Positions 28,570-45,252 of a DNA stretch of 64,000 bases are shown one piece after another. The stretch covers positions 3,560,501-3,624,500 of the forward strand of contig NZ_CP051680.1 in assembly GCF_012849095.1 (NCBI RefSeq), given 5' to 3'. Every line of letters starts with the position of its first letter. The first letter of the stretch is position 1. The stretch comes from Cohnella herbarum (GTDB lineage Bacteria; Bacillota; Bacilli; Paenibacillales; Paenibacillaceae). A program made the position numbers and the translations under genes. The notes under the pieces are model-generated. The model searched no databases and was not told where the DNA came from. It was given only the letters and a program-made list of their open reading frames with translations.

Positions 28570-29394
28570 ATGTTTCCATTTCGGGCATCTCTGAATGCCT
28601 CGACTTTATTCCCTTACCGGCTAGGAATCTGGGAGCAGATTCAAGTCGCGGCGCAAGCAGGTTACGCTGGAATCGAAATCTGGATGAAGGATTTGCAAGC
28701 CTATGCGGAAAATGGCGGTTCCGTCGCCGGACTTCGAAGCAGGGCGGCATATCTCGGAATCGAGATCGTAAACGCGATCTCGTTCCTTCCATGGGCGGAT
28801 GCGGATGAAGCCGTCCGTACGAAAGGCAGGCTGCAAACCGACGAAGAGTTGACGTTGCTCGCCGAGCTTGGCTGTCCCGCATTCGCAGCTCCGCCTTTCG
28901 GGAACGTGGAGAGCGTTACGCTTGAGGAGATGGCGGTTCGGTTCGCACAGTTGAACGAACAAGCGCGCAGCTATGGCATCTCTCCGATCCTAGAATTCTG
29001 GGGCAGAGCCAAGAAATTATCTACTCTAAGCGAAGCCGTCTCCGTTGCGAAGCAAAGTGGCGTAGGTGACGTTAAGCTGTTGCTCGATCCATTTCATATG
29101 TATACGGGGGGCAGCTCGCTCGACGATCTGTCGGCAATAAACGGGAGTAGTATCGGAATCGTTCACGCGAACGATTATCCGCTCCAGCCGCCACGGGAAA
29201 CGATCACGGATGAAGATCGCCTCTTTCCCGGGGACGGAATCGCCCCATCGGCCGAGTTTGCCAGGCTCCTAACCGCGAGCGGCTACCAAGGTTTTTTGTC
29301 GCTTGAGCTATTCGCTTCGGATTATGGCGGCAAATCCGCCTTGGAAACGGCTGCTTACGGGTTAGCCAAAATCAAAAGCGCTTATGACGTCTGA
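28570..29394 (+). CDS. Second sugar phosphate isomerase/epimerase
   Basis: 274-residue TIM-barrel protein of the same superfamily as the gene at 26747 but clearly divergent. Segments: QVAAQAGYAGIEIWMKDL, EFWGRAKKLSTL, LLLDPFHMYTGGSSL, IGIVHANDYPLQPPRETITD and FPGDGIAPSAEFARLL, giving the family Glu, Asp, His and Glu positions. GGAGGAG lies five bases before the ATG. It follows the AraC gene by 119 bases; no terminator is seen between them. Last gene before the repeat region. Confidence 0.87.
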   Translation: MFPFRASLNASTLFPYRLGIWEQIQVAAQAGYAGIEIWMKDLQAYAENGGSVAGLRSRAAYLGIEIVNAISFLPWADADEAVRTKGRLQTDEELTLLAELGCPAFAAPPFGNVESVTLEEMAVRFAQLNEQARSYGISPILEFWGRAKKLSTLSEAVSVAKQSGVGDVKLLLDPFHMYTGGSSLDDLSAINGSSIGIVHANDYPLQPPRETITDEDRLFPGDGIAPSAEFARLLTASGYQGFLSLELFASDYGGKSALETAAYGLAKIKSAYDV

Positions 29395-29449
29395 CTCGAG
29401 CAAAGTGGGATACGGTGCATGAGGCTACTTTGGGCCAATTAGGCTATGG

Positions 29450-29750
29450 CAGAGGAGAAAAAGCGGAAAATCCGGTTACTTCGAGCCAATAGGGGGACGC
29501 TGGAAGATTGATAGGCGGAAAATCCGTCTATCTCGAGCCAACTAGAGTACTTTGGAGGAAAGATAGGCGGAAAAACCAGCTATTTCGGGATAACTTACGG
29601 GTACTGGAGGATTGATAGGCGGAAAATCCGTCTGTCTCGAGCAAGCTAGCGGGCTCTGGAGGTGAATTAGACGGATTTTCCGCTTAACTCAAGCCAACTA
29701 GCGGGCGCTGGAGGAGAACAGACGGAAATTCCGCCAAACTCGAGCCTGCT
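29450..29750. repeat. Tandem repeat family A, 52-bp period, palindromic core
   Basis: Six units with cores starting at about 29463, 29515, 29567, 29619, 29672 and 29723 (steps 51-53). The core is CGGA-NNN-TCCG: AAA, TTT and AAT/ATT versions all keep the 11-base dyad, and one unit (29567) has a damaged core. Linkers contain CTCGAGCCAACTAG-like sequence. No coding function; lies downstream of the second isomerase gene. Confidence 0.85.
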
Positions 29751-29849
29751 AATGCTCTTCGGTTTAACCCTAGATTTTGGTTACTATCGTCCGATATATC
29801 ACTTTTTGTGCGTTATCTCACCACTCAGTCACTTCTGTAAATACTCAGC

Positions 29850-30215
29850 GGCACACAGCACACTTTTTCTAGATATCCGACCAATTAGACCGCTCTTAAC
29901 GGCTTACAGCACACTTTCCCTAGATATCCGACCAATTAGACAGCTCACAACGGCTTACAGCACACTTTTTCTCGATATCCGACCAATTAGACCGCTCTCA
30001 TCGACTTACAGCACACTTTTTCTAGATATCCGACCAATTAGACCGCTCTCAGCGGCTTACAGCACACTTTTTCTAGATATCCGACCAATTAGACCGCTCT
30101 CAACGGCTTACAGCACACTTTTTCTAGATATCCGACCAATTAGACTGTTCTCAGCGGCTTACGGCACACTTTTCCTCGATATCCGACCAATTTGACCGTC
30201 CTCAGCGGCTTACGG
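29850..30215. repeat. Tandem repeat family B, exact 51-bp period
   Basis: Seven units at 29861, 29912, 29963, 30014, 30065, 30116 and 30167, each step exactly 51. The unit contains CACTTTTTCTAGATATCC, then GACCAATTAGACCGCTC and a short dyad CCGC-NNNNN-GCGG. Because 51 is divisible by three, a spurious repetitive open frame (LDIRPIRPL) runs through it. The same family recurs at 43.8-44.0 kb. Confidence 0.9.
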
Positions 30216-30279
30216 CTTCCCGAGTGGAGATTTAGAGCGGACCAGCAGGTTTAAAACTCTGAAGTCGGCTCCATGCTTG

Positions 30280-30445
30280 GAGTTAAAGCGGCTAGGCCGC
30301 TTTATTTCTGCTTACGGAGCCACTTTTTCCGATTTAAGGCGGCTAAACCGCTCTTTTTCTCCCTGCGGAGTCACTTTTTCCGATTTAAGGCGGCTAGGCC
30401 GCTCTATTTCTGCTTACGGAGCCACTTTTTCCGATTTCGGTTAGA
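30280..30445. repeat. Tandem repeat family C, left part
   Basis: Units start at 30280, 30331, 30382 and 30433 (51-bp steps); the fourth is cut after 13 bases by the insertion sequence. The core dyad GCGGCTAGGCCGC alternates with GCGGCTAAACCGC; the linker is CTTACGGAGCCACTTTTTCC. Confidence 0.9.
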
Positions 30446-30532
30446 CCCCCTAAATCCGGAGTATTACTGATGAAATACGTTGCTGTCGTAAAAATACTTG
30501 GTTTACTAGCGTTTTCCTCAGGATTTCGATTC

Positions 30533-31507
30533 TTAAACGGCTCGAGTGTACTTTTCTAAAGAATCAGTCGTTTGCTCCACCCACTTCATGAAAGCCGTTG
30601 GGGACCGTTTTCCCAGGCTTCTGTGCATGCGGCGGTTGTTGTAAAAATCAATGTAATTCCGTACAGCTTCGTGTGCCTCCTGAAAAGATTCAAAGCTCTC
30701 TTTTCCAAGCAGATCTCGCTCAAGGGTGGCATGAAAGGACTCGATGTATGCATTCATATTAGGTGTCTTTGGAGGAATGCGCTCATGCATAATTCCCTCT
30801 GCTTCGCATAACTCTCCAAACGCCTTGCTGATAAATTGGGGGCCGTTATCGGTGCGAATGATCGGCTTGCTCTCTTCGGGCTTTAGACGTGACTGTAACG
30901 CCTTTTTCACAGCTTCGCATACGTGTTTGGCTTCGCAATTCGTACCGATATGGATGCCGACGATACTGCGATCGTAAACGTCGATCATATCTGCGATGTA
31001 GAAAAACTGATCATACCCCGCAACGTATCCATACTTAATATCGAGCTGCCAGACTTGGTTGGAACCTGTTATCGTGTGATTGCGTGCTAGGCGCCTTGGA
31101 TAGTGAACCTTCTTACGTCGTTGCGGATGAAGAATACCGAGCTTCTTACAGAGGCGGTACACTTTTTTCTTATTGATGATGAGTTGGCGCTGTACGTGTA
31201 AGCATTCTGTTAACAACAGATAGCCGTAGCTATGCTCTTCGCCAGACACCAGCTCCATTAACCACTCTTCAATCTGTGCATTACTTATTACGTTTCCGCA
31301 AACCGTTAGAGAATGCTTAGTTACAGGGCGTCCTCGGAGTGGCATTTTTGTTTCTGTAGTTGTATCCTCACGTGATGCTTTCTTTCGTTCGTAGTACGTC
31401 GAAGACGCGGCCCCCACAATGCTTAAGATGTTAGCTACTGTATGTCCCTGCTCAATGAACGTCTGGGCAACGTCGAGTTTGTCATTGAGGCAGGGTTCGT
31501 CTTTTTT
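30533..31507 (-). CDS. IS3-family transposase OrfB (made as OrfAB by frameshift)
   Basis: Catalytic half of the transposase, about 325 residues from the frameshift point. The DDE triad is visible: Asp in VWQLDIKYG, Asp in IRTDNGPQF and Glu in NAYIESFHATLE, followed by YNNRRMHRSLG of the rve integrase core. An HTH_21-like domain lies near the start (EEWLMELVSGEEHSYGYLLL). The minus-strand heptamer A-AAA-AAG at 31501-31507 is a classic -1 slip site, so the main product is an OrfAB fusion. No internal stop is seen, so the element could be active. Confidence 0.88.
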   Translation of the reverse strand, partial: KKDEPCLNDKLDVAQTFIEQGHTVANILSIVGAASSTYYERKKASREDTTTETKMPLRGRPVTKHSLTVCGNVISNAQIEEWLMELVSGEEHSYGYLLLTECLHVQRQLIINKKKVYRLCKKLGILHPQRRKKVHYPRRLARNHTITGSNQVWQLDIKYGYVAGYDQFFYIADMIDVYDRSIVGIHIGTNCEAKHVCEAVKKALQSRLKPEESKPIIRTDNGPQFISKAFGELCEAEGIMHERIPPKTPNMNAYIESFHATLERDLLGKESFESFQEAHEAVRNYIDFYNNRRMHRSLGKRSPTAFMKWVEQTTDSLEKYTRAV

Positions 31508-31794
31508 ACGAGTTCGCGCAGCACCTCGATCTCTAACTCTTTTTGCCCTAACGCCTTTAATGCACGCTCGTACTTTTCTTCCAGATCTGCAAGTCGCTTG
31601 GACTCCATAACTCGTTCGTCGATCGTTGGCAATGAATCTGCCCCAAACGTCTCTTGATATTCCACTACCCATGCTCTAATTGTTTTCGGAGTCACGTCAT
31701 ACTTTCTGGCCAGCACGCCTGCTTTCATTCCCGCAAGAGCCTCTTGTGCTGCTTTGTAACGTACTTCCTTAAAGGCATTATTTCGCTGTCTCAT
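31435..31794 (-). CDS. IS3-family OrfA
   Basis: 119-residue DNA-binding protein with an N-terminal helix-turn-helix (AGVLARKYDVTPKTIRAWVV) and a coiled-coil region (KRLADLEEKYERALKALGQK) used for multimerisation. It overlaps OrfB by 73 bases, including the slippery A-AAA-AAG. OrfA alone usually acts as a regulator of transposition. Confidence 0.88.
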   Translation of the reverse strand: MRQRNNAFKEVRYKAAQEALAGMKAGVLARKYDVTPKTIRAWVVEYQETFGADSLPTIDERVMESKRLADLEEKYERALKALGQKELEIEVLRELVKKTNPASMTNSTLPRRSLSRDIQ

Positions 31795-31867
31795 TTCCGC
31801 TCGCCCCCCTAATGAAATACTACCTTATTTCCCTAGCCATTCTCCAATTCATTTAGGGGGCTTAATA

Positions 31868-32012
31868 GATTTAAAGCGGCTAGGCCGCTTTATTTATGCT
31901 TATGGAGCTACTTTTTCCGATTTAAGGCGGCTAAACCGCTCTATTTCTGCTTACGGAGCCACTTTTTCCGATTTAAGGCGGCTAGGCCGCTCTATTTCTG
32001 GAGTAGCGACAG
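31868..32012. repeat. Tandem repeat family C, right part
   Basis: Continuation beyond the insertion sequence: units start at 31868, 31919 and 31970, again 51-bp steps, with cores GCGGCTAGGCCGC, GCGGCTAAACCGC and GCGGCTAGGCCGC. It ends at the stop of the convergent DUF5107 gene. Confidence 0.88.
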
Positions 32013-32019
32013 CCTCAAC

Positions 32020-34077
32020 CTACTCCCCAATGACTCTGAAATCAATATTGTTCGGAGGCGGGAACATCGACTTCGCCTCCTCGAGAATCGCATCGGACAT
32101 CGGCACGTTTCTGGCCCGGGCCAGGTTCTTCGCGTTGTACTTGTACCATAGGTCGATGATCAACACTTCTCCTTCGCGAATGACCGCGAACTCATGCGCG
32201 AACAACCCATTGACGAACGCCGTCTGATCCAGCTCAAGGGCCGCAACCCCGACGATGATCCGAATTCGGTCCGCGTTCGCGTAATCTTCCGGCAGCGCCG
32301 AATAGGTTTCCCACGCTTCTTGATACATGCGTCGCTCGACGAGCAAGCTCAAATATTCTTCGGCCAATGCTCGATCCGGGAAGGAACCGGAAATCCCGAA
32401 CGCCTTCTCCCAATAGGCAAAAGCCAGATCCATGCGATCTCTTCGTTTCCAAGCCTCGGCAAGATTGCGGTAAACCCACGCGGACGGCTTCAATTCAATC
32501 GATGTTTCCCACGCGCGGATCGCCTCGCCCGCTAGTCCTTTTTCATACAACATCACGCCTAGATGCATGTATCCGTTCCATGACCGATGGTCGGCGATTT
32601 CCAGACTCGCGTGCAATAAATCAAACCATTCCTCCTGGATCATCCAAGGAATAGGCACCTCATTGACATCCCGTTCCGGCAGGTATCCCTTCTCCAACAA
32701 CGTGCGCCAATCTTGCTCACCCGAGCCGCCTTTATCTTTTCCTCCATCGCTTCCACCATCTTTTCCACCGGAAAATAAGAAGCCCTCAGGAATGGAGCGT
32801 CCCTCCTTCATTTCCCTGCGACGTTGCTCCAAAGCTCCCCAAACCGAACCGCGGTGCAGCGCTAGCTCAGGAATACGGGAGGCATACCCTTGCAGAACAT
32901 GATGCAGCTTCGTCATCTCATCGGGCCGGATATGCCGATCGACGCATTCGCGAATATAATCATTCGCTTGAGTCCAATCCTCGCGATACGCCTGTTCCGT
33001 GTCTATATCCGATAAACCGAACGCTTGCGTGAAGTCCCATTCCGAATGAGCCGGCATGTCTAATCCGTGCAATTGCGTCGGCGCAAAGCCGCCTTGAATC
33101 TCGAGGTAATCCCCTTTGCCGGGAGAGGACAGAAAATCGCACCAGCGCCTTCCGCCGGCGTGGTTACCCCAGCAGAACATTTTCCGATAACGCAATCTTG
33201 AGGTCGAACGCTCGTAGAATAACCTGCCGTCTTCGTAAGCGACCGCTTCCCAAGGAGCCTCGCAGGACGCCGCCGTTTGAAAGAAATACTCGTTCGCGAA
33301 CGGGAAGTTCATCGGATAAGTCACGTCCGTATCCGGAACCGTAGGCAGCATCGGCAATTCTCCTAAGCCGAACCCTTTCACGTTATGGTCGATATAGACG
33401 ACTTCGGACGTCGAGGAGAATACGCGCGTTCTGGCCGTTTCCTCCACGGCGATATTCGTCCACCAATACATCGGTACCGAATCGGCGTTGTCATTGACGA
33501 TTCTGACATGGACGAGAAGCTTATCCGACCGTGAAGGCAGATGAAAATCGATATGCCAGAACACGTTCTTGCAACGCTCGTATTCATAGATGCGCAGAAA
33601 TTCGTCCCCGTTATCGTCCGTAAGCTTGGCCGCATGAACCGGAGAGCAAGTCGTGAACGTATGGCCGATTTGGCCGATATTCCACTCTATGCCCCCGGAG
33701 AACCATGCGTTTAAGATCGCCAGATTCGCCGGTTGAAAAACCGGATTCGTGTAGAGAAGATCGCGGTTCGTCTTTTTCTCGACGAGGGAATACAGCCGGC
33801 CTCCGTACTGGGGCAAGAACACGGCTTTCAAAATTTCGTTCTCCAAGACGATCGTATCCAGGGCTAGCTCCGTTCTCGTTCTTGAATATCGATCCTGCAT
33901 CCGATAAGGCAAATATCTTTCGCCGGTTTCGTAACCTAGCTTATCTCTCAACTCTTCCGGGAGAGTCCCGTTATCCGAAACTTCGCGATGACGATTGTCG
34001 CTTCGAAACTTCGGTAACGGATTTTCCCCTTCTAACGTCGAACCTTCTATTCGTAATGTTGACTTGTAAACCTGCAC
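32020..34077 (-). CDS. DUF5107-domain protein with C-terminal TPR repeats
   Basis: About 685 residues. The N-terminal two thirds (about 60-400) are a DUF5107 domain, a galactose-mutarotase-like beta-sandwich (LKAVFLPQYGGRLYSLVEK, FSGGIEWNIGQIGH, VPMYWWTNIAVEE, HSEWDFTQAFG). The C-terminal part has tetratricopeptide-like repeats (YMHLGVMLYEKGLAGEAIRA, VYRNLAEAWKRRDRMDLAFA). Cytoplasmic. DUF5107 proteins occur in sugar-uptake loci and probably bind or process carbohydrate. The GTG at 34077 is preferred because AAAGGAG is ten bases upstream; the GTG at 34086 is only one base after it. An Asp/Gly/Lys-rich linker (GGKDGGSDGGKDKGGSG) separates the two parts. Confidence 0.85.
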   Translation of the reverse strand: MQVYKSTLRIEGSTLEGENPLPKFRSDNRHREVSDNGTLPEELRDKLGYETGERYLPYRMQDRYSRTRTELALDTIVLENEILKAVFLPQYGGRLYSLVEKKTNRDLLYTNPVFQPANLAILNAWFSGGIEWNIGQIGHTFTTCSPVHAAKLTDDNGDEFLRIYEYERCKNVFWHIDFHLPSRSDKLLVHVRIVNDNADSVPMYWWTNIAVEETARTRVFSSTSEVVYIDHNVKGFGLGELPMLPTVPDTDVTYPMNFPFANEYFFQTAASCEAPWEAVAYEDGRLFYERSTSRLRYRKMFCWGNHAGGRRWCDFLSSPGKGDYLEIQGGFAPTQLHGLDMPAHSEWDFTQAFGLSDIDTEQAYREDWTQANDYIRECVDRHIRPDEMTKLHHVLQGYASRIPELALHRGSVWGALEQRRREMKEGRSIPEGFLFSGGKDGGSDGGKDKGGSGEQDWRTLLEKGYLPERDVNEVPIPWMIQEEWFDLLHASLEIADHRSWNGYMHLGVMLYEKGLAGEAIRAWETSIELKPSAWVYRNLAEAWKRRDRMDLAFAYWEKAFGISGSFPDRALAEEYLSLLVERRMYQEAWETYSALPEDYANADRIRIIVGVAALELDQTAFVNGLFAHEFAVIREGEVLIIDLWYKYNAKNLARARNVPMSDAILEEAKSMFPPPNNIDFRVIGE

Positions 34078-34142
34078 CTCAAGCACGCTCCTTTTAAGAG
34101 GTTGTTCAAAATTCCTCAGCCCCTAAGCTTCTTACGCTCCTC

Positions 34143-34982
34143 TTATTTTACCGCTCCCAACGTCATCCCTGCTATAATCCTCTTCGATACGAATAAGTAA
34201 ACGATAAAACTCGGCAGGAACACGATCATGCAAGCCGCGAATATGCCACCGTAATTGCCCGTATTGGAGTAACCGTAGACGATAGACTGAAGGGACAAGG
34301 CCAACGTGCGCGTACCCGGATCGTTCGCGAAAATGAGGGCGTAGAAGTATTCGTTCCAAACCCCTAAGAAGTTAAAGATCGATAGCGTAATGATACCAGG
34401 CTGCGCGACCGGCAATACGATCTTTATGAAGCTTTTGATCGGGCCGCAGCCGTCCATCGCCGCAGATTCCTCGAACTCCTTGGGAATGGAAGTAAAGAAG
34501 CTGGTCAGGAAAAATACGCCGAAAGGCACATTCGTAAAAATATAGATCAATACCAACGTCGCGATCGAGCCGGTAAGCTTCAATTCCACGAACAACGAGA
34601 ACAACGGAATGGCGATCAATAATCCCGGGATGGCAAGCGCCGATACGAACATCGCGTTCACGAGACTTCGGCCCCTGAATTGTACCCGCCCTAAAATATA
34701 AGCCGCCGGAGCGGCAACGACGACGATGCCAATGCAAGACGCCACCGTATAGATCACGCTGTTCATGAAATAGCGACCCATTGCCTGAGTTTTGAACAAA
34801 TCGATATAATTAGCAAATTTCGGGCCGCTGGCAAGCAACGTATTCGTGAATATTTCTCTCGTCGTGCTCAACGAAGCCAAGATGACCCACCCGAACAGAA
34901 CGACGGAAAAGATCAGCCAAGCGATAAGCGGGATATACGCGGGCCATAGATTCTTGCGATGCATAGGCTTGGATTGAAGCAT
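34143..34982 (-). CDS. CUT1 sugar ABC permease, MalG type
   Basis: 279-residue permease with six helices; EAA loop at PKEFEESAAMDGCGPIKSFI followed by LPVAQPGIITLSIFNFLGVW. AGGAGGGG is five bases before the ATG. Starts 15 bases after the MalF-type permease stop. Part of the transporter with the binding protein at 36036; the DUF5107 gene follows after 65 bases. No ATPase is encoded here. Confidence 0.92.
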   Translation of the reverse strand: MLQSKPMHRKNLWPAYIPLIAWLIFSVVLFGWVILASLSTTREIFTNTLLASGPKFANYIDLFKTQAMGRYFMNSVIYTVASCIGIVVVAAPAAYILGRVQFRGRSLVNAMFVSALAIPGLLIAIPLFSLFVELKLTGSIATLVLIYIFTNVPFGVFFLTSFFTSIPKEFEESAAMDGCGPIKSFIKIVLPVAQPGIITLSIFNFLGVWNEYFYALIFANDPGTRTLALSLQSIVYGYSNTGNYGGIFAACMIVFLPSFIVYLFVSKRIIAGMTLGAVK

Positions 34983-34997
34983 GACGTCCCCTCCTGC

Positions 34998-35906
34998 TTA
35001 ATATTCTAAACGGTCTTTCGGGAATAACCGGTTGATGAGCGCGGTGACGATCAGTACGGCTACCGTAATCAAGATGCCGACGCTGGCCCCCGCCCCGACG
35101 TTAAACACTTCCTCGCTATACACGCTGGTTCCCTTGCCGAACACTTTCTGATACATGTAATAGCCCGGCGTAACCGTATGGGGATCGTCCAAACCGAACG
35201 TTGCCGACCATACGAAGAAGTTAAACGCATTAATCGTCCATAGAACAAGAGTCGTTCGAAATACGTCTCGCAGCAGCGGCAAAGTGATTTTGAAAAATTT
35301 CACGACGACGCTCGCTCCGTCCAGCGTGGCCGCCTCGTAATAATCGGTCGGGATTCTGTCGATTCCCGCGTTCAGGATCAGCATGAAATATCCAATCGAG
35401 CCGAAGCTGAAAGCGACGATCATCGAGAAATAAATATGTTCGTTGTCCGTCCACTGTATATTGGCAAGCGCCGTTAAACCGAGGCGATTAAATACCGTAG
35501 TCAATAAACCGTAATTGGAATTGAAAATATAATGCAGCCATACGACCGACAATACAACCGCCGAAACGGTGTTCGGCAGAAAAATAAGCGATCTCCAGAA
35601 GCTTTTGCCCCGGATGCCCGAGGTCAGTATAACAGCGAACAGAAAGGCAAATGCAAAGATCAGAACGCCTCCGATAGCCCATATCCCTAACACGTTCCGC
35701 ACGGATTCCAGAAAATACGAATTATGAATCAGATCGTTGTAATTCTGAAAGCCTTTGAATTCCCATTCCTTCACTCTGCTTGATAAGGAAGGAATCTCAT
35801 AAAAGCTCATGGCCAACGTTCGCAAGGTCGGATATAAGAAAATGACGAGATAAACGAGGACGGCCGGCATTAAAAACAACGCGATAATCGATTTGCTGAG
35901 CTTCAT
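34998..35906 (-). CDS. CUT1 sugar ABC permease, MalF type
   Basis: 302-residue permease; N-terminal helix ALFLMPAVLVYLVIFLYPTL and EAA loop PTDYYEAATLDGASVVVKFF followed by ITLPLLRDVF. The ATG at 35906 follows GGAGG by seven to eight bases; a longer frame reaches back to 36029 through the intergenic hairpin and is not credible. Encoded between binding protein and MalG-type permease. Confidence 0.92.
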   Translation of the reverse strand: MKLSKSIIALFLMPAVLVYLVIFLYPTLRTLAMSFYEIPSLSSRVKEWEFKGFQNYNDLIHNSYFLESVRNVLGIWAIGGVLIFAFAFLFAVILTSGIRGKSFWRSLIFLPNTVSAVVLSVVWLHYIFNSNYGLLTTVFNRLGLTALANIQWTDNEHIYFSMIVAFSFGSIGYFMLILNAGIDRIPTDYYEAATLDGASVVVKFFKITLPLLRDVFRTTLVLWTINAFNFFVWSATFGLDDPHTVTPGYYMYQKVFGKGTSVYSEEVFNVGAGASVGILITVAVLIVTALINRLFPKDRLEY

Positions 35907-35983
35907 GGCAACACCTCCGAATCGTTTCACACGCAATCTGATGTTGATGTTGGTGCTGATGCTTACGGACCTCCACCATAAAA

Positions 35984-36020
35984 TCCGAGCGCGGCGATGA
36001 TTCGATCCGCCGCGCTCGGA
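35984..36020 (-). other. Strong hairpin between binding-protein and permease genes
   Basis: Perfect 13-bp GC-rich stem TCCGAGCGCGGCG (35984-35996) with CGCCGCGCTCGGA (36008-36020), loop 11. On the minus strand it is followed by TTTTA, so it may act as a leaky terminator or mRNA 3' stabiliser, lowering permease relative to binding-protein expression. Confidence 0.75.
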
Positions 36021-36035
36021 CGAAGACAAAGTTAC

Positions 36036-37460
36036 TTATTTGCCCGCGTAGAACTTCTTGGCTTCCGCGGCCATCTTGGCGACGTACTCGTCGGCGGTGA
36101 TTTTACCGGTGGCCAATTCCATGAATACCGGGATTACCGTCCCCGTAGAGAAGTCCGCGCCGTTCTCGATACCCGCGCCCCATGGCATATTTACTTTCGC
36201 GTTATTGAACGCGATAGCCGCGTCCTCCAACGGTGCCGGCCACTTAGAGTCGACGGTAGCCGGAATCGCGACCGCTTGGACGGCCATCGCTTCTTGCGCT
36301 TTCTTGCTAACCAAATATTTCACCAATTCGAAAGCCGCAGGAACGTTTTTGCTGTTTTTGTTCAAGAGAAGGCCTTGCGCGCCAAAGGTAAGTCCTTGTT
36401 GGCCTCCTTTGTCGTTGCCGTTAGGAACGGTCGGAAACTGGAAAGAGCCCCATTGGAAGTCCGGTCCGGCCGTTGCGGCAATTTCATTAGGCAGCCATGA
36501 GCCGTTCAAATACATTGCCGCTTTTCCGAGAGCGAGATCCTGTTGTCCCGCAGGGTACTTATTGCCCGCGATCCTCTTGGAGAAGTATTCTTTTTGCTTC
36601 AAATTCTGAATATCGTTGGCGAATTGGAGCACGATCGGATCCTTCCACATGTCGCCCGTTTTATCTTTGACTAGGCTATCCGTCCAATCGCTGCCCATTG
36701 CGCTGCCCAAATATCCGCCGATAAACAGGCTCCGGTAAGCATCGTCGAACGTGATCGGTTCAATGCCCGCTTGTTTAAGCTGCTCGCATGCGGCTAGAAA
36801 CTCTTCCCATGAAGTAGGAACTGCCGTAATGCCCGCTTTGTTGAACAACGCTTTGTTGTAGAAGAACAGAACGGCGTACGGTTGCTGAGGGATCGCGTAG
36901 TATCCTTCTTCCAAACCTGCCGGACCGGATAACGATTTTACCCATTCGATAAGCGAAGGAATGATAGAATCCTTAACCGACTTCCCATCCATTCCGATCG
37001 ACTGCTGCTCGAGCAAGTCGTCTAGCTTAAGCACGTGATCTTTCAGATTGGCCAGAGCCGCGCCCGGATCTTGTTCGAAAATATCGATCTGCTGCCCGCT
37101 TTCCAATGCCGGTTTAATCAGCTTGTTAATGTCGCGGCCGTTATATTTTACTTCTACCTCAACCTTCGGATTAGCCGCCTTAAAATCGGCAACGGCTTCG
37201 TCGATGACTTTGGCTTGAGGCTCCGTGTTGCTCCACATCGACCAGAAGACGACTTTGCCTTCCAGTTCGGAAGCGGCAGGCGTCTCAGCATTATCGCTCG
37301 CACTCGCTGAAGCGGTTTCAGATGGCGATGCGCTAGGTGAAGCGCTAGGCGATGAAGACGACTCGGCGTTGTTGGATTTACCGCAACCTGCCAACACTAC
37401 TGTAAGCGTTAACATCACTGCGAGTAATAAAGATCCGAATGCTTTTCTTTTCTTGTTCAC
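36036..37460 (-). CDS. Sugar-binding lipoprotein of CUT1 ABC transporter
   Basis: 474-residue class I-type solute-binding protein. Signal peptide ending in lipobox VVLAGCG, then a Ser/Ala/Pro/Glu linker, then binding domain starting GKVVFWSMWSNTEPQAKVID. Typical mid-motif KAGITAVPTSWEEFLAACEQ and GKAAMYLNGSWLPNEIA. The start codon is GTG, about ten bases after AGGGGGA. It is the promoter-proximal gene of the transporter operon, divergent from the kinase gene at 37672. A cre site lies within the signal-peptide codons. Ligand unknown. Confidence 0.92.
   Translation of the reverse strand: MNKKRKAFGSLLLAVMLTLTVVLAGCGKSNNAESSSSPSASPSASPSETASASASDNAETPAASELEGKVVFWSMWSNTEPQAKVIDEAVADFKAANPKVEVEVKYNGRDINKLIKPALESGQQIDIFEQDPGAALANLKDHVLKLDDLLEQQSIGMDGKSVKDSIIPSLIEWVKSLSGPAGLEEGYYAIPQQPYAVLFFYNKALFNKAGITAVPTSWEEFLAACEQLKQAGIEPITFDDAYRSLFIGGYLGSAMGSDWTDSLVKDKTGDMWKDPIVLQFANDIQNLKQKEYFSKRIAGNKYPAGQQDLALGKAAMYLNGSWLPNEIAATAGPDFQWGSFQFPTVPNGNDKGGQQGLTFGAQGLLLNKNSKNVPAAFELVKYLVSKKAQEAMAVQAVAIPATVDSKWPAPLEDAAIAFNNAKVNMPWGAGIENGADFSTGTVIPVFMELATGKITADEYVAKMAAEAKKFYAGK
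37401..37414 (-). promoter_or_regulatory. cre site in the 5' end of the binding-protein gene
   Basis: TGTAAGCGTTAACA, a full match to the CcpA site consensus, lies about 47 bases into the coding region. Expected to act as an elongation block giving carbon catabolite repression of the transporter operon. Confidence 0.78.
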
Positions 37461-37597
37461 GGATGAATTCCCCCTGCGATTGGTTTGAATGCAAGTTGAG
37501 TATAGGCAATGAAACGGGCCAAAAGTATGTTCTCCAGTTATATAAAAATGGATAAAAGTTAGGTCTATGTTCTAGAGTCCCTATGATAAAAACGAAG

Positions 37598-37607
37598 ATG
37601 CTATAAT
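37598..37607 (+). promoter_or_regulatory. Probable extended -10 promoter of the kinase operon
   Basis: ATGCTATAAT: a consensus TATAAT at 37602-37607 preceded by TG one base upstream, no good -35. It is about 65 bases before the kinase start codon. Two copies of TATGTTCT (37527 and 37566) upstream could be activator contacts. Confidence 0.55.
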
Positions 37608-37671
37608 GTAAACACACGACCAGGGTATAGCGAACGTTATGTCCCTTACTGTTCAGACGGGGGATTCTCTC

Positions 37672-39489
37672 ATGGGCCTACTAAAGAAGCTACGTATCAA
37701 AACGCAAATCTTGATAGCGGTTACATGTATCATGGTCATCATGCTTGCGATCATTTACTCCCTGTATTCCCAAACCTCCAAGATCGTGATTAAGAACAAT
37801 AATCAATATTCGGAAGATACGATTCGGAAATTCAGGCTCGGAATCTCGCAGAAGGTCGACGAGATCAGTCAGATTATGCTTAACCTCGGATACGATCCCA
37901 CCGTGCAGAAGTTCATGGTGCAGAACGATCCGAGCCTCTCGTACGAAATGGCAAAGGAACTGGACCGCAAGATCATATCGCTTAAAGCCGGCCGGAAAGG
38001 GTTCGAAGATATCGTCTTAATCGGCACGAACGGCACGAGGTACAGTCTCAACGGAGGTATCGATTACGTTCAGCAGTTGGAGAAGGAAATCCAAGACAGC
38101 TCGACTGTGTACGTCAGCGGATTCGAAGAGTTCAGTTATAGCAACAACTTATTGACCAGCATGGTATTCGCCCAGAATATGTACTCCAACAACATGAACG
38201 ACGGAACCGACGGGATCAAGATCGGATATATTGCCGTCATCGCCAACGTCGCTTCCATGTATTTCGATAACGAGACTTCCAGTACGCAACCAGGCGTAGG
38301 TTTCTATATGATCGACCGTTACGGAGAAGTGTTTCCGGATGCCCACTCCCCGGATATCGCGCGAAGCATTAGCGCATTAAGCAACAATCCGGATAACAGG
38401 CAGCGATTAACGGATTACGTCGGAGGAGTTAAAGGCGCCGTGCAAATTCAGAAGCTGGATCAGATTCAGGCTTCCGTCCTCAGCTTCGTCCCGGAGGAAG
38501 CGCTTCTTGCCGAATTGGCATCCGTTCGCACGAGAAGCATACTCATCGTAATCCTTGCCCTTGTTCTTATGGCATTGCCTTTCGCGATGATCGTCAACAA
38601 CATTCTCCACCCGATACAGATTCTCGTGAGATTTATAAACAGCATTAAGTCAGGCGATATTCGGGATTTGAAGAAGAACCTGCAGCTCGAAGGAAACGTG
38701 GAAATGACCGTCGTGGCGGAGAAATTAAACGGAATGCTGGGGGAAATCAACGTTCTGACCCATAAGCTCGTCGAAACGACCACCCATCTGCTCGAGGCCG
38801 AGATCGAGAAGGAAAAGGCGGCGTCCGCTTACTTGCGAAGCCAGATCAATCCTCACTTTTTGTACAATACGTTGGAGTCCATTAAAGGAGTCGCGCTCGA
38901 GGTCGGCGTTCACAAGATCGTCGACATGACGAAAGCTCTCGGGAAGCTGTTTCATTACAGCATTAAAGGATCCGGGTATGTCACGCTTGAGCAAGAGCTG
39001 AATGCCGTTAAATCCTATGTTTTCCTGCAACTGATCCGCTTCGAAGGACGTTTCGACGTGACCTACGATTTCACGAAAGAGGCCTTATCCGTTCCGGTTA
39101 TGAAAATGATTCTGCAACCGATCGTGGAGAATGCCGTTTTCCACGGACTTGAGCCCAAAGAAACCAAAGGAATGCTTACGATAAGCGGCGGAATCGCCGA
39201 CGACGATACGCTGGTACTCCGAATTACGGACGATGGAACCGGCGTTGACGGACAGAAATTGGCGGACATTCAAAGTTTACTTCTGAACGAGGCCTCCTCG
39301 ACTAACCATAATGGCAGCTACCTTACCGAGAAGGGGAGCATCGGAATCTTAAACGTACACAACCGGCTTCGATTAGCTTTCGGTTCCGCCTACGGCCTCA
39401 AGTTCGAGAGCGCACTCGGCCAAGGAACCTGCATCACGTTATCCATGCCTAGAGACTTTATTTTGCCGGGAGGGGACTTTCATGCATAA
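37672..39489 (+). CDS. YesM-type sensor histidine kinase
   Basis: 605-residue membrane kinase: helix 1 about residues 10-33 (ILIAVTCIMVIMLAIIYSLY), extracytoplasmic sensor about 35-285, helix 2 (ILIVILALVLMALPFAMIV), HAMP, phosphoacceptor segment RSQINPHFLYNTLESIKGV, N-box PIVENAVFHGLEP and G-box GSIGILNVHNRLR. ATG chosen at 37672, seven bases after GGGGGA. Overlaps its regulator by eight bases. Divergent from a transporter operon that it probably controls together with the regulator and the lipoprotein encoded behind it. Confidence 0.93.
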   Translation: MGLLKKLRIKTQILIAVTCIMVIMLAIIYSLYSQTSKIVIKNNNQYSEDTIRKFRLGISQKVDEISQIMLNLGYDPTVQKFMVQNDPSLSYEMAKELDRKIISLKAGRKGFEDIVLIGTNGTRYSLNGGIDYVQQLEKEIQDSSTVYVSGFEEFSYSNNLLTSMVFAQNMYSNNMNDGTDGIKIGYIAVIANVASMYFDNETSSTQPGVGFYMIDRYGEVFPDAHSPDIARSISALSNNPDNRQRLTDYVGGVKGAVQIQKLDQIQASVLSFVPEEALLAELASVRTRSILIVILALVLMALPFAMIVNNILHPIQILVRFINSIKSGDIRDLKKNLQLEGNVEMTVVAEKLNGMLGEINVLTHKLVETTTHLLEAEIEKEKAASAYLRSQINPHFLYNTLESIKGVALEVGVHKIVDMTKALGKLFHYSIKGSGYVTLEQELNAVKSYVFLQLIRFEGRFDVTYDFTKEALSVPVMKMILQPIVENAVFHGLEPKETKGMLTISGGIADDDTLVLRITDDGTGVDGQKLADIQSLLLNEASSTNHNGSYLTEKGSIGILNVHNRLRLAFGSAYGLKFESALGQGTCITLSMPRDFILPGGDFHA

Positions 39490-40960
39490 AGTACTGCTGG
39501 TCGACGATGAAAACCTGGTCATTAAGAGCCTTGAAGCCGGAATCGATTGGAAGAAGTCGGGCTTCAGCGTCATAGGGAAAGCCAATAACGGCGTCAAGGC
39601 GTTGCAGATGGTTAAAGATTTGAAGCCTCATGTTGTCTTCACGGATATTCGGATGCCTGGGATCTCCGGCTTAGAATTAATTAAAAAAATCAAGGAACTG
39701 GACAGTACCGTTCAAATTATCGTCATTAGCGGTTATGCCGAGTTCGCTTACGTACAGAAATCATTGAATTACGGCGTATTAGGGTATTGCCTCAAACCGT
39801 TCGACGATCATGAAATCGAGACGCTGCTCCACACGGCCGCAAAAGCGATCGAAGAAATCAAGCACAAGCGCGAGGGGCATCTGCTTGATTTGATCGAAGA
39901 AATACCGAACGAGCAGACCCAATCGGCTTTTAAGAAAATATTGTCCGACGAAGGGATTACCGCCGACAACCTTCATGTCGTCGTTACTCTCGGCAAAGGA
40001 AAACCGATCATTACCGAGAACGCGAGATCTATCGCCATCCATGTCGGCAGCGCCAAAAGCAGCTATATCGTTCAAAGCCTTAACCGGGAATCGATCGCAA
40101 GCACGGTAGCCTCTCCTCTTCCAGAGGGAACTCTGGGGATCGGAATCGCTCAAGCGGAACTCGATATGAACGGGATTATGAAAGCCATGGAGAAGGCTAC
40201 TCTCAAAGCTTGGGATTTCTTCATTCACGGCCGTAAGGATATCTTCGTCGATCCGGAACAATCCAATGAAATCAGGGCGAATCAATTGCTGAAACAGCTC
40301 GAAAAAGCGATCGCCAAGAAGGACTCTCGTCTATTGCGAGCTACGCTTGACGAGATGCTCGAATCGGAGAACAGGCAATGCCTAAGCATCCTTCACGCGC
40401 TTAAAATCTATAACCTAGTGTATTTCCACGCATCGGCGGACCCTTCTAATACGCCGGAAGAGGATTATATTTTCAGCAAAGAGCAGCTCTACCACCTGTT
40501 CCATAGCTTCGAGTCGATGATCGAGAGCTTGAAGGATTTCCTGATCGATATCGACAAGCCCCCGGAGGAGCAAACGGAAAACAAGACGACGAATGCCAGC
40601 CTAAGGGAAGTCCTGAAATATATAAACGAAAACTACAAAAGCGATATTTCCATCCAGAGCATATCGAAAAGCTTCTATTTGAACCCCAATTATCTCAGTC
40701 AGCTGTTCAAGCGGGAGCTCGAGGTTACGTTCACGGAGTATGTCACGAAAGTACGCTTGCAGGAAGCCAAAAGCTTGCTCCAAACGACGGGCCTATCCAT
40801 CGGAGAAATCGCGGAGAACATCGGATTCAGGGATTATTTTTACTTCATTAGAACGTTCAAAAGACATACGCAGCAGACGCCCAAACAATATCGGAATAAA
40901 GACAAGCAAGGAATGGGCGGCAAAGCTCATCTTAAGCTACGTCTGGAGGAACGAATGTGA
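39482..40960 (+). CDS. YesN-type response regulator with AraC DNA-binding domain
   Basis: 492 residues. Receiver domain 1-125 with acidic pocket LLVDDEN, phosphoacceptor in FTDIRMPGISG and Lys in YCLKPFD; a long middle region (about 140-370) of unknown fold; C-terminal AraC domain (ISIQSISKSFYLNPNYLSQL, IGEIAENIGFRDYFYFIRTF). Ribosome site GGGAGGGG six bases before the ATG, inside the kinase gene. Its stop overlaps the start of the lipoprotein gene (GTGA). Confidence 0.92.
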   Translation: MHKVLLVDDENLVIKSLEAGIDWKKSGFSVIGKANNGVKALQMVKDLKPHVVFTDIRMPGISGLELIKKIKELDSTVQIIVISGYAEFAYVQKSLNYGVLGYCLKPFDDHEIETLLHTAAKAIEEIKHKREGHLLDLIEEIPNEQTQSAFKKILSDEGITADNLHVVVTLGKGKPIITENARSIAIHVGSAKSSYIVQSLNRESIASTVASPLPEGTLGIGIAQAELDMNGIMKAMEKATLKAWDFFIHGRKDIFVDPEQSNEIRANQLLKQLEKAIAKKDSRLLRATLDEMLESENRQCLSILHALKIYNLVYFHASADPSNTPEEDYIFSKEQLYHLFHSFESMIESLKDFLIDIDKPPEEQTENKTTNASLREVLKYINENYKSDISIQSISKSFYLNPNYLSQLFKRELEVTFTEYVTKVRLQEAKSLLQTTGLSIGEIAENIGFRDYFYFIRTFKRHTQQTPKQYRNKDKQGMGGKAHLKLRLEERM

Positions 40961-42585: not shown

Positions 42586-42724
42586 TTGAATGCTAATGCT
42601 TAGGAAAATTGAATTGGCAAACGTAAATGGACGCTAGTTATTCAAATATGGATTATTGACATGTAAAATAGGAGGAAGGCTGGCGAAAAGCCCGTTCGAA
42701 ATACAGCAATCGGAGGAAACCATC

Positions 42725-43717
42725 ATGCGCTTTATCAGCAACCGTAACATCACCGATCCATCGCTAAATTTGGCTCTTGAGGAATATATATTGCGTTCGT
42801 TGCCCGATACCGACGACTACTTGTTGTTCTATATTAATGAACCGTCGATCATCATCGGCAAAAACCAGAACACCGTGGAAGAAATCAACGCGGAGTACGT
42901 GGAGGAGAACGGCATTCACATTGTTCGCAGGCTGTCGGGAGGCGGCGCGGTCTACCACGATCTCGGCAACTTGAATTTCAGCTTCATTATGAAGGATGAC
43001 GGCCAGTCGTTCCATAACTTCAAAAAATTCACCGCGCCCGTAGTCCAAGCTCTTCGCAAGCTCGGAGTGGAAGCGGAATTGACGGGACGCAACGACTTGC
43101 AAGTCGGCGAACGCAAAATATCCGGCAACGCTCAGTTCTCCACGCGGGGGAAAATGTTCAGCCACGGAACGCTCCTGTTCGATTCGGAGATGGAGAACGT
43201 CGTTTCCGCGCTGAAAGCGAACGCCGAGAAATACGTCTCCAAAGCAACGAAGTCGATCCGCAGCAGAGTCGCTAACATTTCGGAGTTTCTGGCTGAGCCG
43301 ATGACGATCGAGCAATTCAAGACTAGCTTGCTGACCTCGTTATTCGAGGGGGAGAAAGATATACCTTATTATGAGCTGAGCGAGCAAGATTGGGATAACG
43401 TTCGCAAGCTGGCGGATGAACGTTACCGGAGCTGGGAATGGAATTACGGCCGTTCGCCCGCATTTAACGTGCGCCAAACGAAGCGAATCGAAGGTGCGGG
43501 AACCTTCGACGTTCGCCTTCAAGTCGAAGATGGCGTTATCGCAGTCGCAACGATCTACGGCGATTTCTTCGGCAGAGGCGACATCGGCGAATTGGCCGCT
43601 AAATTTGTGGGCGTGCGCTACGAAACTCAGGCTCTGAGCGAATTGCTGGACAGCATCGACCTGCCGTTCTATTGCGGCCCAGTGACGAAGGAACAGTGGT
43701 TGGAATTGATGCTTTAG
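42725..43717 (+). CDS. lplA: Lipoate-protein ligase
   Basis: 330-residue enzyme that attaches lipoate, via lipoyl-AMP, to E2 subunits of 2-oxoacid dehydrogenases and GcvH. Family motifs: IIIGKNQNTVEEIN, the RRLSGGGAVYHDLGNLNFSF nucleotide/lipoate loop, and the catalytic Lys131 in ERKISGNAQ. A C-terminal accessory domain (about 250-330) is present as in bacterial LplA. The ATG follows GGAGGAA by seven bases; the longer frame to 42656 lacks support. Stands alone between the kinase operon and the second repeat array. Confidence 0.95.
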   Translation: MRFISNRNITDPSLNLALEEYILRSLPDTDDYLLFYINEPSIIIGKNQNTVEEINAEYVEENGIHIVRRLSGGGAVYHDLGNLNFSFIMKDDGQSFHNFKKFTAPVVQALRKLGVEAELTGRNDLQVGERKISGNAQFSTRGKMFSHGTLLFDSEMENVVSALKANAEKYVSKATKSIRSRVANISEFLAEPMTIEQFKTSLLTSLFEGEKDIPYYELSEQDWDNVRKLADERYRSWEWNYGRSPAFNVRQTKRIEGAGTFDVRLQVEDGVIAVATIYGDFFGRGDIGELAAKFVGVRYETQALSELLDSIDLPFYCGPVTKEQWLELML

Positions 43718-43817
43718 GGTGTGAGGTTGGTGGTGGATAAGGTCCACCACCGCCTTGCAACGCCGCACCGCGCGAGGGTAACTGGGTCGCGGTGCGGGGG
43801 CTCGGTTGATACTACAA

Positions 43818-44060
43818 GCACATGTTCCTCGACATCCGACCAATTAGACCGTTCTCAGAGGCTTGCAGCACACGTTTCCTTTGAATCAGACAAATTAGAC
43901 CGCTCTCAGCTGCTTACAGCATACTTTTCCTCTGAATCGGACCAATTAGACCGTTCTTAGCGGCTTGCAGCACACTTTTCCTCGATATCCGACCAATTAG
44001 ACCGCTACCAACGGCTTGTAGCACACTTTTCCTCGGTATCGAACAATTCGGTACTCCGAG
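43818..44060. repeat. Tandem repeat family B, second locus (family D)
   Basis: Five degenerate units with GACCAATTAGACC-type cores at 43838, 43889, 43940, 43991 and 44041 (51-bp steps, last 50). The consensus (ATCCGACCAATTAGACC, GGCTTGCAGCACAC) is that of the array at 29.9-30.2 kb, about 13.6 kb away, so the two arrays share an origin. Confidence 0.88.
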
Positions 44061-44089
44061 CGTATTTAGTGACCCGCCCAGCGGGGTTT

Positions 44090-44690
44090 CCCTCACCATT
44101 GTCGCGTTTTGCGACAATGAAAGAGGGGTTGGTCGGGTTTGCCTCACCATTGTCGCGTTTTGCGACAATGAGAGCAGAGTTGGTTAGTTTGACCTCGCCA
44201 TTGTCGTGTTTTGCGACAATGAGAGCAGGGTTGGTCGGGTTTGCCTCGCCATTGTTGCGTTTTGCGACAATGAGAGCAGAGTTGGTTAGTTTGACCTCGC
44301 CATTGTCGCGTTTTGCGACAATGAGAGCAGGGTTGGTCGGGTTTGCCTCGCCATTGTTGCGTTTTGCGACAATGAGAGCAGGATTGGTCGGGTTTGCCTC
44401 GCCATTGTCGCGTTTTGCGACAATGAGAGCAGAGTTGGTTAGTTTGACCTCGCCATTGTCGCGTTTTGCGACAATGAGAGCAGGGTTGGTCGGGTTTGCA
44501 TCGCCATTGTCGCGTTTTGCGACAATGAGAGCACGATTGGGTGGCTTTGCCTCGCCATAGTCGGTTTTCCGACTATGAGAGCAGGTTTGGTTAGTTTTGC
44601 CTCGCCATAGTCGGTTTTTCCGACTATGAGAGCGGGGTTGGTTGGCTTTGCCGCGCTATAGTCGATATTTCCGACTATGGCGTGGCAAAG
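44090..44690. repeat. Tandem hairpin array, 51-bp period, 12 units (family E)
   Basis: Stem-loops start at 44098, 44149, 44200, 44251, 44302, 44353, 44404, 44455, 44506, 44557, 44607 and 44658. Nine have stem ATTGTCGC-GTTTT-GCGACAAT; the last three have ATAGTCGG-TTTT-CCGACTAT-type stems, the last one imperfect. The 30-base linkers come in two alternating versions (AGGGTTGGTCGGGTTTGCC and AGAGTTGGTTAGTTTGACC), indicating 102-bp duplications. Repetitive open frames on both strands are a by-product. It ends at the stop of the convergent YdeI-like gene. Confidence 0.92.
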
Positions 44691-44701
44691 CTCCTTAGAG
44701 G

Positions 44702-45166
44702 TTACTTCAGTTTCTTGCCCTCTGCTAGGAGAACGATGGATTTGGCGATTCGGGCTTGCCGAGTTTCCGGCTTTTTGGCCGATTCGATCCACGATACGTA
44801 TTCCTTCTGATAGGAGTAGGCAAGATCGTTGAAAAATGCGAATGCTTCCGCATTTCCTTCGAGTACCGATAGAAAATCGTCAGGGACATCGACCGTCCTT
44901 GCGTCGGTATCAAGCTCCATCACCACATGAACGACCGTTCCGGCAGTCGCGTTCGCAGCATCGCGTAAAGCTTTGTTCACGACCATATAGTGTTTGCCCG
45001 TTCCATCGGGCATTAAAGAGCCTCTATAGTCGATTCCGTTCAATTCCCCCCGCACTTTCACGTTTGCACGACAACCGTAAACTTCTTCCGCGCTGAATGG
45101 AACCCGAAGGAAAGTCCAAGTCCCCGTCCCTTCCGGTCTGACTAACATGGCATCGAATTCTTTCAT
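44702..45166 (-). CDS. YdeI/DUF1905-type small conserved protein
   Basis: 154-residue cytoplasmic protein. N-terminal DUF1905 beta-barrel domain (TWTFLRVPFSAEEVYGCRAN, GIDYRGSLMPDGTGKHYMVV) and C-terminal YdeI/OmpD-associated helical domain (DDFLSVLEGNAEAFAFFNDL, YVSWIESAKKPETRQARIAK). The combination is widespread in Firmicutes; function is unknown. The ATG at 45166 follows GGAGGGG by six bases. Its stop directly borders repeat family E. Confidence 0.82.
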   Translation of the reverse strand: MKEFDAMLVRPEGTGTWTFLRVPFSAEEVYGCRANVKVRGELNGIDYRGSLMPDGTGKHYMVVNKALRDAANATAGTVVHVVMELDTDARTVDVPDDFLSVLEGNAEAFAFFNDLAYSYQKEYVSWIESAKKPETRQARIAKSIVLLAEGKKLK

Positions 45167-45252
45167 TCTCCACCCCTCCGTTCGCCTTATCATCTAAATC
45201 TCTTACCTATCGCTTTCATGGTAATCGAATCGCGTTTCCGCATATCCCAATC

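Follow-up and report, generated by a model that had tools for sequence, protein, structure and literature searches.

Tandem arrays between the genes of Cohnella herbarum follow a length-and-phase rule: what is conserved in them is how many helical turns a repeat unit spans, together with the phase of the A/T-G/C alternation, and the sequence is nearly free. As explanation we favour, with about even confidence, that the arrays are satellites kept at whole helical turns for the sake of DNA shape and wrapped by a protein, most likely gyrase.

The window, i.e. the whole 64,000-bp stretch of DNA that was analysed (positions 3560501-3624500 of the 8.5 Mb genome), contains six arrays with a period of 51/52 bp as detected by Tandem Repeats Finder, array C being counted as two pieces (Table 1). 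The first-pass annotation had assigned this periodicity to arrays A, B and C, and this is confirmed, with matching unit starts; a second B-type array and a fourth family, D, had been left unnamed. The left part of array C has units at 30280, 30331 and 30382 followed by a part unit, with Tandem Repeats Finder giving a span of 30283-30437 and the decayed unit from 30228 being read by eye. In the autocorrelation of the window lag 51 is dominant, being by far the strongest repeat lag with 1117 forty-base positions, followed by lags 102 and 153. The array region had also been described as free of genes, which is incorrect as an IS3-family element with transposase open reading frames (ORFs) divides array C. 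Both composite arrays of the window are flanked by convergent genes. Rfam gave no matches up to an E value of 1 across window positions 29000-45200, and neither phages queried with D nor plasmids queried with B+D yielded a match.

Table 1. Arrays, flanking genes and the inserted element in the window (window coordinates).
Feature	Position	Strand	Properties
Left flank gene of first composite array	28570..29394	+	Xylose-isomerase-like TIM barrel (PF01261); 3' end towards array
Array A	29463..29746	+	Period 52/51, ~5-6 units; helical harmonic rank 1
Array B	29844..30213	+	Period 51, 7.3 copies, 0% indels; helical harmonic rank 1
Array C, left part	30228..30437	+	Period 51; helical harmonic rank 1
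IS3-family insertion sequence	30438..31867	-	Interrupts array C; GATTT present at each junction
Transposase ORFs of IS3-family element	30533-31672, 31435-31794	-	
Array C, right part	31868..32000	+	Period 51; helical harmonic rank 1
Right flank gene of first composite array	32020..34086	-	DUF5107; convergent with 28570-29394
Lipoate-protein ligase gene, left flank of second composite array	42725..43717	+	
Second B-type array	43817..44035	+	Period 51, 4.3 units; helical harmonic rank 1
Array D, fourth family	44084..44664	+	Period 51, 11.4 copies, visible dyad; helical harmonic rank 1
Right flank gene of second composite array	44702..45166	-	DUF1905/OmdA; convergent with 42725-43717

The period was determined in 79 evenly spaced stretches of 20 kb from four genomes of the genus, 19 from C. 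herbarum and 20 from each of three others. Among 28 noncoding arrays with a period of at least 30 bp, 23 repeat at 50-52 bp (2, 17 and 4 at 50, 51 and 52 bp, respectively), the exceptions having periods of 40, 42, 58, 98 and 114 bp; for the period-98 array Tandem Repeats Finder also gives 51. A further two 51-bp arrays were taken for coding sequence by the simple gene finder and stand outside the count of 28; the 52-bp array at locus L123 is counted among the periods but, having no right-hand gene within its stretch, not among the flanks given below. The proposal that the period stays constant while the sequence changes, which demanded a genome-wide peak at this length, is thus borne out in the samples of all four genomes. 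In one genome of the genus (G003) arrays of this kind are present although the genome matches neither B nor D. Other families of the order, sampled with ten stretches from G037 and six from G041, yielded no 50-53-bp array; G041 has one low-identity 42/63-bp repeat.

Individual units are similarly uniform. We counted 647 units in 110 arrays, most of which had been fetched by similarity and two of which are from Alkalibacillus (L071, L072), using at most the first 900 bases per array: 511 units are 51 bp long, 88 are 52 bp, 31 are 50 bp and the other 17 range from 47 to 55 bp, so that 630 units fall at 50-52 bp. Inside the arrays 240 indel bases stand against 2431 substitutions, about a tenth, a ratio that, taken alone, does not point to indels being strongly purged.

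To group the arrays we aligned 111 consensus units in a rotation-aware manner (three duplicate loci, L040, L133 and L054, were left out), and a score threshold of 40 resulted in 27 clusters, the maximum of the null being 28 (of 600). Families A, B and C had been taken to be unrelated. Their sequences do differ widely, yet this statement is too strong because similarity between clusters exceeds that of shuffles: 136 of 4618 between-cluster pairs score at least 26 as compared to 18 of 3000 shuffled pairs, i.e. about five times as frequently. B and C have phase-aligned stretches in common, and as their score in the window, 28, is reached by just 11 of 3000 shuffled pairs, the two are probably distant kin. 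The similarity between clusters may derive in part from shared A/T-G/C phasing and in part from remote kinship, and some of the constancy of the period may be due to inheritance from a 51-bp ancestor.

This similarity is an argument for common descent alone, according to which an ancestral 51-bp repeat spread in the genus, partly with mobile elements, and the period was inherited and maintained by concerted evolution with no function involved. The distribution of the arrays fits such a history, as B+D of the window, used as query, has matches in 8 of 36 other genomes of the genus, but in 0 of 23 genomes of the order. A composite of ~600 bp, consisting of a B fragment and a 51-bp array, likewise occurs at three places with 95-97% identity, i.e. 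the element carries both parts along. Compared with a MITE, a short element having terminal inverted repeats and a target duplication, the composite ends in GCTGTC...GACAGC at its three loci, with no clear target duplication. We nevertheless regard descent alone as doubtful. Drift should broaden the period, yet nearly all units are 50-52 bp long, and descent predicts neither the helical phasing nor the 4-, 5- and 6-turn periods of Alkalibacillus nor the occurrence of unlike arrays at one site, all described below.

Within the unit A/T and G/C alternate five times, i.e. every 10.2 bp, and the fifth harmonic of this W/S pattern is the strongest of 25. Its family-weighted value is 0.102, as compared to 0.039 in mononucleotide shuffles (z 9.3) and 0.044 in dinucleotide shuffles (z 8.1, 25 clusters). 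Ordinary 51-mers from the same genomes give 0.048 (noncoding) and 0.045 (coding), and none of 20,000 resamples of 25 reaches the array value. The tests comprise 108 of the 111 arrays, one 48-bp array and Alkalibacillus L071 and L072 being left out. The loci of most of the 108 had been selected for their resemblance to B or D; the 26 arrays from evenly spaced stretches are reported apart and by themselves give a z of 4.8 (14 clusters). The fifth harmonic ranks first in 60 of the 108 arrays, 13 of the 26 from evenly spaced stretches, 9 of 25 clusters and all six window arrays. With a loose similarity threshold (28) the arrays of the genus collapse into three clusters and z decreases to 2.7, or to 0.5 for evenly spaced stretches only; since few independent units remain under loose clustering, the phasing claim leans on a second genus.

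An excess of sequence identity at 10 and 20-21 bp inside the units is mostly explained by the W/S pattern, as the largest positive z in a W/S-preserving shuffle is 2.0, at lag 9. A nested 10- or 21-bp duplication as source of the phasing is, by the same shuffle, unsupported in the arrays of the genus. Neighbouring arrays from different families tend to be in step along the helix (20 pairs, R 0.47, p 0.01), and all 22 pairs of array junctions give R 0.44 and p 0.015, a value that we prefer to the p of 0.0009 for the 14 pairs with gaps of at most 60 bp, which were chosen post hoc.

The fifth harmonic had been picked after autocorrelation, and Alkalibacillus served as a test made afterwards. A search of named genomes for a 12-mer of the B family recurring at intervals of 36-66 bp yielded one contig of Cohnella luojiensis, on which B lies beside a C-like array, and two contigs of Alkalibacillus aidingensis. 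That Alkalibacillus and the B family have this 12-mer in common could be due to chance where genomes are rich in arrays, and nothing is concluded from it. We sampled 20 roughly evenly spaced stretches on the two A. aidingensis contigs for arrays with a period of 36-66 bp. The periods are 40-42, 52-53 and 63 bp, corresponding to 4, 5 and 6 turns, and with a helical repeat of 10.5 bp, as chosen by us, 15 of 15 arrays lie within ~0.2 turn of a whole number. At the matching harmonic the phasing of these 15 arrays is 0.111 versus 0.038 (z 7.5). Several of the 40-42-bp units and the 63-bp unit divide into 20-21-bp parts, and in Alkalibacillus a nested duplication may be the source of the phasing. 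Array clusters are convergently flanked in 6 of 17 cases, as compared to 23 of 128 gaps, a weak bias. A related 52-bp query matches 2 of 22 genomes of the family of Alkalibacillus, including the query's own.

A mechanism that measures length had been postulated from the constant period, with a short dyad in every unit. Length indeed appears to be measured, the ruler being the DNA helix with five turns per unit, or four, five and six in Alkalibacillus, rather than units defined by dyads. Strong hairpins occur in some families, D among them, and the largest family, strong hairpins included, passes the dyad test; however, dyads exceed those of shuffles at p<0.05 in only 4 of 26 families, Alkalibacillus accounting for one of these (combined p 0.048), and the B family fails at p 0.34. 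We thus rejected the dyad as a universal element; it is not what the array class shares.

The position of the arrays relative to genes is biased. In the four genomes convergent genes flank 10 of 21 array clusters, but 21 of 275 other gaps of at least 200 bp (Fisher p 6e-6; the comparison set is the total gap count minus the 21 array gaps). Divergent genes flank 2 of 21 clusters versus 81 of 275 other gaps (p 0.07), and 9 of 21 clusters have codirectional flanks. A biased set of 31 C. herbarum clusters contains 13 convergent, 14 codirectional and 4 divergent ones. The convergent bias may simply reflect that arrays are tolerated away from promoters.

In 30 of 37 genomes we compared the 1.5 kb that lie on the 3' side of the lipoate ligase gene. 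C. herbarum has B+D at this site, G023 a 26-copy array of 52 bp and G028 an 8.8-copy array of 51 bp, the latter two being unlike B+D in sequence, and in the remaining 27 genomes the gene is not directly followed by an array of this kind. The ~600-bp composite copies contain 3.5, 4.5 and 4.5 units, so that the difference is exactly one 51-bp unit. Unlike arrays of 51/52-bp period at a site that is mostly empty, and near-identical copies one whole unit apart, are what would be expected if the ruler acted in the copying step, i.e. if a recombinase or topoisomerase duplicated a fixed helical length and arrays were born at 51 bp whatever their sequence. No birth of an array from unique sequence was caught, though, and copying alone does not predict the phasing inside the unit; we assign this possibility a low probability.

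Satellites held at whole turns and wrapped, our preferred explanation, would combine these observations as follows. In a five-turn unit of 51-52 bp with A/T-rich and G/C-rich stretches alternating once per turn each unit should bend alike, which would make the array a long, uniformly bendable segment. The arrays lie for the most part downstream of genes, chiefly between convergent ones, where transcription traps positive supercoils. Most likely a protein requiring ~50 bp of phased DNA per wrap would wrap them. Whole units would be gained or lost by slippage or unequal exchange, and under selection lengths out of phase would disappear because they break the wrap, leaving the sequence to drift and the length to stay. 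Wrap length must be added to phasing in this scheme since the four genomes of the genus use almost only five turns, and phasing alone would also allow four or six.

DNA gyrase is the best candidate for the wrapping protein as the C-terminal domain (CTD) of GyrA is thought to wrap ~35-52 bp and to prefer G/C phased at 10 bp. According to published work, the E. coli gyrase motif exhibits a phased 10-bp variation of G/C in two periodic regions whose size fits the 35-52 bp wrapped per GyrA CTD (PMC6379681), a gyrase site consists of 47-bp periodic arms and a 36-bp centre (PMC12393610), and in both E. coli and yeast positive supercoils are enriched where genes converge (PMC8360656). Phased motif, wrap size and supercoil distribution together lead us to propose that the arrays are wrap tracks on which gyrase would act where positive supercoils collect. 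The same source on the E. coli motif (PMC6379681) also holds two points against gyrase: the attraction of the enzyme to downstream regions seems not to be hard-wired in the E. coli genome, and sites with strong phasing slow it down. Gyrase cleavage in BIME-2 is reported there as well. We tried the E. coli sucB-sucC BIME-2, a reported gyrase-cut element, as positive control for phasing, and the result was negative: at this one locus the best lag is 89 bp and helical phasing is absent.

The phasing and length data would fit any protein that wraps ~50 bp, and a different wrapping or bending protein, e.g. an HU-like protein, a bacterial histone or an SMC loader or barrier, might read the phased arrays and organise the chromosome. 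We consider this improbable, the published ~50-bp wrap with a preference for phased G/C having been found for gyrase. Rather unlikely, too, is a version that joins function and copying, in which the arrays serve gyrase or another wrapper as wrapping tracks between convergent genes, and the same protein creates and resizes them by cutting and rejoining DNA one wrap apart, which would quantise the unit in whole helical turns. If true, the arrays would be a bacterial counterpart of nucleosome-length satellites, with one ruler acting in both their function and their birth.

Sequence is the usual basis for classifying bacterial repeats; in the arrays described here helical turns and phase are conserved. 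In eukaryotic satellites sequence varies between families at fixed length, and the Cohnella arrays show the same combination of fixed unit length and variable sequence. Both form head-to-tail arrays, and the unit length of nucleosome-length satellites equals a protein wrap (PMC8122249), which the ~51-bp units would match if they are wrapped as we suggest. The Cohnella arrays differ in that they are bacterial, ~51 bp in unit length, intergenic and dispersed over the genome. If protein wrapping is true, bacterial satellites would be under the same kind of rule as the eukaryotic ones, and the arrays would be built-in, testable markers of the handling of positive supercoils between convergent genes.

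Similar to E. coli REP/BIME-2 the arrays are extragenic, clustered, located at the 3' ends of genes and rare at promoters, with 10 convergent, 9 codirectional and 2 divergent flanks. Two defining features of REP/BIME are nonetheless absent, a general dyad and RAYT. The RAYT/Y1 transposase is the usual partner of REP/BIME, and PF01797 had no matches in the C. herbarum genome, with the control being positive in 5 of 14 genomes; RAYT/REP spread was rejected on this ground. The available text of a REP survey contains no mention of Cohnella, Paenibacillus or tandem arrays (PMC12306157).

With the strong gyrase site and the E. coli motif the arrays share G/C phased at ~10 bp, albeit weaker under loose clustering, and a length close to that of the ~47-bp periodic arms. 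The motif is a single 130-bp site, in contrast to array phasing, which recurs unit after unit across hundreds of bp. Variable-number (VNTR) minisatellites are likewise tandem and intergenic with copy numbers differing by whole units; their periods are usually mixed, whereas 23 of 28 arrays of unlike sequence share a period of 50-52 bp. A regular period and dyads in some units are reminiscent of CRISPR, which is ruled out as the whole unit repeats and the window arrays have no unique spacers. A CRISPR-looking array with a period of 67 at locus L025 stands in contrast to them. A 17-codon coding repeat was rejected because the 147-aa ORF that runs through B (29752-30195) has no Pfam/NCBIfam match and arrays of 52 and 50 bp shift the frame. 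No description of such arrays was found in the literature, most of the papers covered being outside subscription journals. What seems new is the length-and-phase rule; the outward form, an intergenic tandem array, is of a known kind.

The IS3-family element that splits array C has nine copies in the genome, identical over 1414 bp (30454-31867). Four of them lie inside or at the edge of clear 51-bp arrays, three further copies have raised identity at lag 50 or 51 (0.44-0.58) on one or both sides, and two have neither. The share of arrays in the evenly spaced stretches of the C. herbarum genome is ~0.4% (1,519 of 380,000 bases). We term the 51-bp arrays an insertion hotspot for this element.

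The genome holding the window contains nine identical copies of one IS3-family element (L210-L218), four of which lie inside or adjoin clear 51-bp arrays, while three adjoin degenerate 50/51-bp periodicity and the remaining two are located elsewhere. The 51-bp arrays hosting these copies differ in sequence. Further transposase genes, typed as IS3-like and IS256-like by eye, adjoin or separate pieces of 51-bp arrays in three other stretches (L022, L028 and L034).

Genomes differ in what lies 3' of their lipoate ligase gene: the arrays at this site are of unlike sequence, or there is no array. A MITE-like repeat of ~600 bp with the ends GCTGTC...GACAGC is present at three loci and contains a fragment of the window array family B together with a 51-bp array, the length of which differs by one unit between copies.

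Location of the features (coordinates count within each stretch)
Feature	Stretch	Coordinates	Genome
IS3-family element, window copy	window	30438-31867	G000
Site 3' of lipoate ligase gene	L135	2566-3930	G023
Site 3' of lipoate ligase gene	L142	2553-2997	G028
Site 3' of lipoate ligase gene	L134		G015
MITE-like repeat	L035	5581-6176	
MITE-like repeat	L036	5745-6388	
MITE-like repeat	L039	5366-6005	
58-bp-period array	L006	17826-18088	
67-bp-period array	L025	2026-2189	

Pieces of 29-88 bp resembling array units occur outside the TRF arrays at 26 places (L007-L153), 14 of them within 70 bp of an array, and are perhaps decayed units.

The noncoding array of L006, with a period of 58 bp (4.5 copies, 89% matches), clearly departs from the period rule. 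The array of L025 has a 67-bp period and, judging by its repeat, resembles a CRISPR. In Alkalibacillus, the second genus with phased arrays, the 40-42 and 63-bp units at L163, L178, L179 and L182 are composed of 20-21-bp parts, each corresponding to two helical turns.
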